A DNA stretch of 64,000 nt from the NCBI RefSeq assembly GCF_036785885.1, contig NC_092326.1:40820287-40884286 (forward strand), given 5' to 3'. The position numbers were made by a program, and so were the translations under genes. Shown here piece after piece: positions 53,207 to 56,530 of this stretch (positions within the stretch are counted from its first letter, which is position 1; the number at the start of each line of letters is the position of its first letter). The stretch is from Coffea arabica (taxonomy: Eukaryota > Streptophyta > Magnoliopsida > Gentianales > Rubiaceae). The notes beneath the pieces are model-generated. The model was not told the origin of the DNA and ran no database searches. It was given only the letters and a program-made list of their open reading frames with translations.

Positions 53207-56200
53207 TTATCGGCCTTCAACAATCGTTACAGTGACATTGTTAATAGAACCAACCCTTTGCGAAGAAGAATCACTTTCTGAAGATCCTAATCTTCTTGTA
53301 TAAGCCGGTAATTTGGGAAGAGGGAGATTTGAAATTTCACTGTTAAGCATGGATAGAACAGCAGAGATATCTGGCCTATCTTTTGCAAATTCTTGCACGC
53401 ACAATAGCCCTGCATGGACGTATCTCAAGACCTCTTTTTCGATACCCGGGACAAACATAGCTGCATCTATCAGTTTAACTGCTTCTTTTTCATTCCACAA
53501 TTTCCAGGCCTGAGGAAGCAAAATGAAACAGTGAATTTAATTTGCTTTATGCAAGAATGGGATAAGGAACTTTGCCCTTATGATACTCTTCATAGTCGAA
53601 GATATTATCTTACATATCCAAGTAGACTCAGCTCATTCTCGTGATAATAGAAGTTACTATTTCTCCTTCCTGTCACAATCTCTAATAGCAGCACCCCAAA
53701 GCTGTAGACATCTGACTTTTCTGAAAACATGCCTTCCATTGCATATTCCGGGGCAATGTAGCCACTTACGTTCATCACCATATATATAGGCAAAAAGAGT
53801 AAAAAGTAGTTTGAGTTATGAGGACTACAAGGGGAAGAAAAACAGTTTAGATTTATTATGAACTGATTGAATTAAACAAGAGAGCGAACTGTACTCACTA
53901 TGTACCCACAACCCTCCTTGTATTGGCTTGATCTTCATTGCCTCTGAAAATTCTTGCCAAGCCAAAATCTGATATCTTGGGTCTCAGCTCTTTATCTAAT
54001 AGAATATTGCTTGCCTTTAGATCTCTGTGAATGATTTTTAATCTTGAATCTCTGTGAAGGTAAAGGAGGCCTCTGCCAATCCCATCAACGACGGTGACGC
54101 GTTTTTTCCAATCGAGTACACTTGGCTTATCAGAATCTGAAAGAGCAATAATGACGTAGATCAATATGACTCAGTATAAGGTATTACGGAAAATTTCCTG
54201 TGCCATATAGTGCTGCTAGTCGAAAAACCTGGTTTTTTGGAACTGAAGAAAAAAAAAAAAAAAGTGCTGCGATGTTCATCAACAAACCAAATAGATGGAA
54301 GTCCAGGCTTTTGTTTGGCATGTATTCATAGACTAGCATTTTCTCTTCTCTTTCAGCACAGCAGCCAATGAGTCTAACAAGGTTCCGGTGCTGGAGTTTA
54401 GAAATGACCACAACTTCATTCATAAACTCCTCAATGCCTTGGCCTGAAGTGTTGGAAAGCCTTTTCACTGCAATTTCCTGGCCATCTAACAGCTTTCCCT
54501 GCAGATGCAATGATAATTAAGTTCCAATCCTAGCAAACAACTCATGTAGTTCTTGAAGCAGCGTGGAATACCATGAGGAGCTTACATTACCTTGTAGACT
54601 TGACCAAAACCACCTTTGCCCAGCTCATTGCATTGTTCAAAGTTATCTGTTGCTTTAGCTAGTGTTTCATAAGTATACAGAGGTAGCTCTCCTAACTTGG
54701 CTCCGTCCCCAGTTTTGCTGACCATGTTTTCCACATTATACGCAGGTTCAAACGAAGACACCTGATCATCTTGGTCTTTACCTGTTTATGAGCAGGTGGT
54801 AGGTGAATGCATGAATATAAATCACAACACACGAGAAATTAATTAAGCACAGTTTGAGCATATTAAAGTAAGTAATCTCACCTTTGTGCTTAGTCCACCA
54901 TTTCCAACAAAAATATAGAGAGACGGCAATAAATAAAGATGCTCCAATTACTGAGGTTGCAATGACTGCTTTCATGTCCCTTTTCTTGCCTATAAATGTC
55001 AAAGTTTCAAAGCATCTTCAGAAAGCTACTATCGAGAAAGAACTAGCCAAATGCAATTCTATGTCATTTTGACTTTCTTGTAGAATCTATAGAAAAAATG
55101 TAAAAAGAAGTGAAGGGGATTTGATATCTTCGTTACATTCCAAAATATAGCCTTGATCGAATTCAAATCCTATTTGAATGCGGAAGCAGAAAGTAAAATG
55201 CTACATTAAGAGTACAGAGTTACTAAAACATTGTAATAAGAAGTGTCTTACCAAGTTCAGAATAAGGCACACGTATGTATAAATCTGCCCCGTCAGAAGA
55301 GGCAAACTGCTGTATATCAATTAAGCTTCCCTTCCAGTGCATACAGCCAATGCCCGGATAAGAGGCATAAGCTAAACAGGAGCAATTATTTGAGCACTGA
55401 GTACCACATTCGTCTTCTGAAGTTGCTACCCATTCAGCCAAATCTGGAACTTTAGTGTTTGGGAGCTTCAAGAATCCATCTTGTTTGCCCTCAGAACGAA
55501 CAGAATTATTTCTCTCACATTGCAGCATTTCCCTTCTTGTGCAACCACTAGTCCAGTTTCCTCCTTCCCATTCCACCTTATCTCTAGGCTCAAAACCTTG
55601 CAAACATGTACAAATAGGTGAACCATGGGGTTTGCAGCTTCCAAAAGGTCCACATATGCCATAGACATCACATTGACTTCCTTGGCTTGACCATGTAACC
55701 TCCCAATCCCCTTTTCTATCTGATAAAACTTTCTGCAGTATAGACCCTGAGGAACTCAATTCAAAGTACAACAAACCACTATCATTTGAATACGTGAAGG
55801 TAGCAGACACCAATCCTGTATCATCCGTTACCAGGTTAAAACCATTTAGATAAACTGGATCCATGTCAGGAACTCCAATAAAGGCACTGCTGTTCCATGG
55901 ACCACTGCGCCAATAAGGTTTATTGTCGTTCCAAATGAAGAGTTGTGGAGTTTGCTGGGGTTCAATACCTAGGGAGAAACTTCCGATAGATGGATCAGAA
56001 GGATTTCTCCAAGAGGTCAATCGGATTTTCTGGCCTTTCGTACTTGAACTTAATCTCATCCGCCGGAGATATGAGTCTGTCGGAATCTGAAAACTTTCCC
56101 ACAGAGTTCTTCCACTGGGATTGTCTGTCAAAACCAAGTTTCCAGTATCCAAGAGTTGTGCAGTAGAATTTGCCACAGAATTTGAAACGTTAGATGACCA

Positions 56201-56530
56201 TAGTATCTCCTTCTGCCCATTCAAGACCACAAGATTGCCGTCTCCTGAGATTGTCAGAGTTCCTGATGAATCATTTAATGGTCTGTCTCTATTAGCCACC
56301 CATACTACTGCAACTGCAGGAACATTGAACATGATTCCAACATATCGACCACTACTATTTGCAGGACTGAAAAATCCTAATTTGAAAGTCTGGTTTGAAG
56401 AAACTATAGTTTCGGAGTCCTGCAGAGGCTGAGTGATTGTTATATAATCCACCGCTGTACAAGCTTCTAAACAGAAGCAAGCAAGTAGTAGAAAAAGGGA
56501 TCCCCTCATTGGTGATTGAGAAGTTATCAT
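53207..56530 (-). CDS. G-type lectin S-receptor-like Ser/Thr kinase, gene D (chimeric)
   Basis: Seven exons: 55252-56530, 54882-54989, 54591-54781, 54288-54498, 53899-54136, 53614-53764, 53207-53509, total 2,481 bp or 826 residues. Signal peptide, B-lectin, S-locus and PAN domains are nearly identical to gene C. The kinase, from the second half of the transmembrane exon onward, is nearly identical to gene [36 protein letters not shown] and IAPEYAM are intact. The exon 6 acceptor reads TAAG rather than CAG, as in gene E. The gene spans the joint of the tandem duplication, so it was made by unequal crossing over. It combines a C-type ligand-binding face with an E-type signalling domain. Confidence 0.92.

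Follow-up and report, generated by a model that had tools for sequence, protein, structure and literature searches.

A chimeric receptor kinase gene of coffee with its joint in the putative transmembrane exon

The receptor kinase array and gene D

The stretch of Coffea arabica DNA that we analysed (C17:40820287-40884286, 64,000 nucleotides, hereafter the window, in which all plain positions are counted) is a tandem array of G-type lectin S-receptor-like kinase genes, named A to E, all on the minus strand. Gene A is broken, genes B, C and D are complete, and gene E lies only partly inside, its exon 1 running past the window to C17:40885202; the full-length E is open and encodes 830 aa. The genes, the exons of D and two mobile elements are the following.

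2..24953, minus strand: gene A, an E-like pseudogene broken by two insertions
25565..28800, minus strand: gene B, an open paralogue of 825 aa, used as outgroup and for the comparison of rates
29486..32697, minus strand: gene C, an open gene of 825 aa, from whose lineage the ectodomain half of D comes
38669..47059, plus strand: LTR element in the first copy of the duplicated unit described below; LTRs of 3.2 kb that are 98.2% alike, target duplication CATAT
49269..53125, plus strand: hAT transposon with DUF4371 and Dimer_Tnp_hAT frames and an 8-bp target duplication, CCTCCAAA
53207..56530, minus strand: gene D, seven exons joined by GT-AG splice sites, open, 826 aa
55252..56530, minus strand: D exon 1, the ectodomain with B_lectin, S_locus_glycop and PAN_2; C-type
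54882..54989, minus strand: D exon 2, transmembrane; 5' part C-type, 3' part E-type
54591..54781, minus strand: D exon 3, juxtamembrane part and start of the kinase; E-type, 97.9% to E
54288..54498, minus strand: D exon 4, kinase; E-type, 98.6% to E
53899..54136, minus strand: D exon 5, with the HRD and DFG motifs; E-type, 97.5% to E
53614..53764, minus strand: D exon 6, kinase; E-type, 100% to E
53207..53509, minus strand: D exon 7, end of the kinase, C-terminal tail and stop; E-type, 99.7% to E
61558..64000, minus strand: gene E, cut at the window end; source lineage of the kinase half of D

In a Pfam search of the D protein, B_lectin, S_locus_glycop, PAN_2 and the protein kinase domain all scored above their cut-offs, and DUF3403 came slightly under its own (28.7, with a cut-off of 28.9). 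D has the domains of a G-type lectin S-receptor-like serine/threonine kinase (At1g11330/At1g11300-like). Inspection of the translation by eye shows a hydrophobic stretch encoded by exon 2, the putative transmembrane segment, together with G-loop, AVK, HRD and DFG sequences that we take to be the kinase motifs. The top protein match to D among the matches listed is P0002 of Coffea canephora, at 98%. The exon 6 acceptors of D (53764) and E (62115) are preceded by GTAAG, without a pyrimidine-rich end, a context that is unusual for splicing and is the same in the C18 copies D' and E' described below.

The hAT transposon ends 81 bp past the stop codon of D, where it could influence the 3' end of the gene. 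The corresponding site beside E is empty, and no match to it was found in the 70 kb of C18 that were read. The interior of the LTR element is about 2 kb long with gag as its single long frame, so that it is perhaps a non-autonomous Ty3-type element. In gene A, the insertions are in exon 3 and intron 1 and have LTR-like ends; the exon 2 donor and the exon 3 acceptor are lost, the DFG aspartate has become an asparagine, and kinase exon 4 appears to be frameshifted.

A change of parentage in exon 2

The original prediction held that D is a chimera of a C-type and an E-type gene joined in the transmembrane exon, and this is what site counts, a breakpoint test and conflicting trees all give. In a three-way alignment of C, D and E, the C-type bases end at 54948 and the E-type bases begin at 54932, within 2 bp of the limits first proposed (54934 and 54948). 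The stretch shared between the two parts, which had also been predicted, is 15 bp long and exactly alike in C and E.

54933..54947, minus strand: joint interval, 15 bp, an exact match of C 31100-31114 and E 63287-63301

Position 54944 is the single D-private base inside it. With the full-length E, the diagnostic exonic sites on the ectodomain side are C-type in 359 cases and E-type in 12, and those on the kinase side are E-type in 265 and C-type in five. The exception nearest the joint is 54916, where pseudogene A carries the base of D, so it is probably E that changed there. MaxChi on the exonic sites places the break at exactly the 54933-54947 interval, with the partial as with the full-length E, and none of 20000 shuffles (windowed part of E) or of 5000 (full-length E) was as extreme.

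The sequence around the exons divides in the same way. The ectodomain side had been described as C-like throughout, including intron 1 and the promoter, and this is borne out: D exon 1 is 98.0% identical to C exon 1 and 28.1% different from E exon 1, intron 1 differs from that of C at 3 of 262 positions, and the upstream region can be aligned with that of C as far as the ATG (846 columns, 86.8%, a diverged MITE-like stretch included). With the upstream region of E there are just two short matches (127 and 134 columns, about 80-83%), both within the MITE-like stretch and away from the ATG. The kinase side, equally as anticipated, is E-like in its exons (97.5-100%), in introns 2-6 (9 differences in 581) and in its 3' flank (95.8% over 2122 columns). 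On the matching sides, D is 1-2% diverged from C and from E, while the coding DNA of C and E differs by 23-29%.

The tree comparison, which was able to overturn the chimera, was run, and D changes its closest paralogue across the joint with significant conflict. The protein trees had 23 of the 24 rows each, the ectodomain tree being built without the partial E and the kinase tree without A. In the former, D groups with P0002, C, P0008 and P0006 (five rows, 100/100), and a placement of D with E/A is rejected (p-AU 1e-145); in the latter, D groups with P0002, E and P0012 (four rows, 100/100), and a placement with C is rejected (p-AU 3e-61). DNA trees with both homeologues concur (p-AU 0.00076 for the ectodomain and 1.5e-7 for the kinase). 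Pseudogene A tells which gene is the recombinant: its ectodomain is 3.9% apart from that of E, its exon 2 is E-type on either side of the joint position, and for its kinase pieces E and D are the nearest, so that it is D, not E, that is recombinant.

The junction was sought elsewhere, its presence in related accessions having been proposed as a check, and was found in two further haplotypes. A matching stretch of chromosome C18, of the same genome, holds B', C', D' and E', ordered as on C17, and D' switches at the same 15-bp interval (363 C-type to 5 E-type sites on the ectodomain side, 255 E-type to 8 C-type on the kinase side; 0 of 5000 MaxChi shuffles as extreme); it also has private bases, two of them within the interval and a third next to it. 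In P0002 of C. canephora, the change comes between residues 441 and 446. An assembly or annotation artefact joining C to E was the objection raised at the outset, and tandem paralogues of near-identity are indeed prone to assembly error. The two further haplotypes answer it, since the joint is then common to three of them (C17, C18 with its own private bases, and P0002), and D carries substitutions and a hAT of its own and differs by 1-2% from C and from E on the side where it matches each, so that we regard an artefact as practically negligible. D' itself (L016, C18:37950532-37953880) is frameshifted in exon 7, which costs it about 13 C-terminal residues and leaves the kinase domain untouched.

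A probable single unequal exchange and its aftermath

A self-comparison of the window shows a unit that is present twice, once between exon 2 of C and exon 2 of D and once between exon 2 of D and exon 2 of E.

31100..54947: first copy, from exon 2 of C to exon 2 of D, made longer by insertions
54933..63301: second copy, from exon 2 of D to exon 2 of E, 8354 bp from joint to joint

The insertions in the first copy are the LTR element (38669-47059), the hAT (49269-53125) and smaller ones. The 15 bp at the joint of D are also where the duplication has its two ends. Self-comparison and base-level alignment thereby bear out that the joint is the boundary of the tandem duplication, and the claim that one event accounts for the chimera and the duplication stands, since the same 15 bp bounds both. 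We think it very probable that D arose once, by an unequal exchange between C and E within their transmembrane exons that turned C-E into C-D-E. As we reconstruct it, the neighbours C and E would have been misaligned, and the exchange would have joined the 3' flank and kinase exons of E to the start of exon 2, intron 1, the ectodomain and the upstream region of C, and would have duplicated the 8.35 kb between the two points.

A different course would be the duplication of a whole C (or E) gene, half of which was later overwritten by the other paralogue through gene conversion, with the end of the tract falling in exon 2 by chance. Conversion between these copies is likely in view of their uneven divergence, and the ectodomain dS between C and D (0.007-0.027) is low against the dS of B-B' (0.073). 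Such a tract, however, would have to extend over the five kinase exons with their introns and into some 2 kb of 3' flank, or else over exon 1 and several kb upstream, and its end exactly at the duplication boundary would be a coincidence of which unequal exchange has no need; we hold this course to be very improbable.

How the exchange was made is less clear. The original prediction spoke of unequal crossing over, of which the single unequal exchange stands, while homologous crossing over is unsettled. Longer identity is usual for homologous crossing over, and the long identity expected at the joint of a meiotic unequal crossing over was not found, the run there being no longer than 15 bp. In exon 2, C and E agree at 77 of 108 positions (71%), and their introns 1 can hardly be aligned. 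Nine runs of C-E identity are of at least 15 bp, and the joint lies in the shortest; the other eight, of 16-24 bp, went unused. With a joint in the shortest run and adjacent introns that align poorly, microhomology-mediated joining or replication template switching fits as well, and would give the same chimera, compatibly with the unequal exchange that we favour. The joining of homologous positions of homologous exons, with no base inserted or lost, is nevertheless what a homologous exchange would do, and we put this non-meiotic route only slightly short of an even chance.

The arrangement left of the window bears on the state before the event. There, the E-like A comes immediately after a C-like gene, Cz, no chimera separating the two, and the DNA between them matches, in parts, the spacer of C-D as well as that of D-E. 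This is the order expected before the exchange, and a later loss of a D copy there could look alike. The locus of Cz (L010, C17:40810757-40815563) holds an open second C copy next to fragments of a B copy; together with short remnants on C18 (L014) that resemble B and A, this suggests an older duplication of a B-C-E block.

The age of D has to be read through the later history of the copies. The presence of the chimera on both C17 and C18 indicates that the event probably predates the split of the canephora and eugenioides subgenome lineages, placed at 4-6 million years ago (PMC11018527). No single age fits the dS between D and D', which is 0.004 in the ectodomain, against 0.073 for B-B', and 0.065 in the kinase, where the frameshifted end of D' may have raised it. 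In introns 2-6, D and D' differ by 2.6%, as do E and E', and D is closer to E (1.5%) than to D'; the kinase DNA tree leaves D+D' unresolved (5.9 log units worse, p-AU 0.16). Along the duplicated unit, divergence is uneven even without three MITE bins (p 2e-6), which calls for later conversion or for source haplotypes that already differed. From this unevenness we infer that the copies, including the two halves of D, have probably kept exchanging sequence since the event, perhaps also across subgenomes. The most striking stretch is 58500-59249, with 0 differences in 750 bp from about 37380-38130, where about 2% is usual between the unit copies; it is likely to be a recent conversion tract. The bins of 57500-58499 differ by 2.1-5.2% each, and the MITE-like bins at 56750-57249 by 10-13%.

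The two halves of D on C17 are similarly diverged (28/1500 and 24/1747, p 0.33), which is compatible with one event, but later exchange between the copies makes it weak evidence for dating, and most of the weight is carried by the anatomy. A young event confined to the canephora lineage had been considered, given the dS of the halves (0.021 and 0.017) and their introns (3/262 and 9/581; Fisher p 0.76 in both comparisons), and given a protein tree in which P0006 of C. eugenioides and P0008 of C. arabica lie outside C+D. It was overturned by the chimera on C18 and by the uneven divergence. P0008 was likewise rejected as an outgroup, being identical to Cz, the second C copy on C17. The assignment of C17 to the canephora subgenome leans on protein distances that fall short of proof: P0002 has 15 differences from D in 826 residues and 28 from D' in 822, and P0012 has 17 from E and 24 from E' in 830.

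Constraint, predicted function and known systems

Taken part by part, D has the upstream region and ectodomain of C, and the juxtamembrane part and kinase of E. This anatomy predicts a pairing of C recognition with E signalling, that is, a membrane receptor that would be made where the C promoter is active, would sense as C does and would signal through the E kinase. Since the C and E kinases differ at 23% of their coding bases, a different output of D is possible.

Whether D has a role of its own is another matter. B-B' is under purifying selection (dN/dS 0.23-0.30), whereas in the homeologue pairs of C, D and E, where the counts are small, dN/dS is 0.5-2.6, with no clear sign of purifying selection; it is 0.8-2.6 in the four comparisons of C and D ectodomains and 0.5-0.7 in the four of D and E kinases. 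These high values fit either relaxed constraint or diversification. D could then be a by-product of the exchange without any role, for which the C-D and D-E values set against those of B-B', the roughly 13 C-terminal residues missing from D' after its exon 7 frameshift, and the hAT end 81 bp beyond the stop codon of D would all speak. On the other side, the frame is open in D and in P0002, and in D' through the kinase domain, and high dN/dS suits diversifying receptors too, being also seen in C-C' and E-E'. We consider a by-product a serious possibility, if on balance a somewhat doubtful one.

We also looked for other half-swaps by scanning pairs among 90 homologues of 663-943 aa. These were taken from 153, of which long two-receptor predictions and a handful of other proteins were set aside, and the 153 come from three listings, each confined to the best 120 among some 7,976 with a score. 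The nine members that stand behind P0002 were covered as a group, not singly. Over the 4005 pairs, kinase identity exceeds ectodomain identity by 16.3 points on average (s.d. 4.5). Only 12 pairs combine kinases of at least 90% with ectodomains of about 75% or less; the most extreme is P0002-P0012 (ectodomain 61%, kinase 97%) and the second is P0006-P0038 (64% and 95%). The other ten are outside Coffea (Cinchona, Fagaceae, Sapindaceae), and some of these may be swaps, others only fast ectodomains. In the same 90 homologues, the reciprocal product, an E ectodomain on a C kinase, did not appear, no P0012 pair having an ectodomain of at least 85% with a kinase below 80%. In P0006 of C. eugenioides, the ectodomain, the transmembrane segment and exon 3 look C-type and the kinase looks P0038-type; the change falls at residues 528-531, which in a gene built like C would be only a few codons away from the exon 3/4 border. 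It points to a second re-pairing, in C. eugenioides, and may also be an error of gene prediction. That the array repeatedly re-pairs its halves near the membrane, with D kept since before the split and P0006 carrying its P0038-type kinase as the cases in point, seems to us unlikely.

If D is expressed, it is a natural domain swap, and a comparison of C, D and E would separate the contribution of the ectodomain from that of the kinase, in a crop in which receptor arrays matter for disease resistance. As one genome holds both source genes, the product, the joint and, in Cz followed by A, a copy without the chimera, the birth of a receptor can be read base by base. No description of the coffee chimera was found in the literature searched by title and start of abstract, a search that most subscription papers lie outside of.

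D is a very clean and unusually well-resolved case of a known route to new receptors. In the CRK (DUF26) receptor kinases, halves have been exchanged after tandem duplication, and, as in coffee, ectodomain and kinase trees disagree and the transmembrane region is on a separate exon (PMC6368629). Their ectodomain is of another family, and the passages of that paper available give no base-level joint, whereas in coffee both sources, the product and the joint lie side by side. The Arabidopsis OAK cluster is likewise a structurally variable tandem cluster of receptor-like kinases with discordant coding and promoter histories; there, a duplication brought coding sequence under a new promoter, so that the promoter was the new part, and the consequence in hybrids was shown, while the coffee swap is at the membrane and is seen in sequence alone (PMC3136440). 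Maize Rp1-D21 is also a chimeric immune receptor gene formed by recombination between tandem paralogues, but it is an NLR with an autoactive phenotype, and its paralogues are more than 90% identical, against the 23-29% coding difference between C and E (PMC4342346). Closest in design, with one receptor kinase's ectodomain on the intracellular domain of another, is EFR::XA21, described as a working sensor in rice (PMC4379099); that receptor was made in the laboratory, whereas the coffee D is natural and is known from its sequence.
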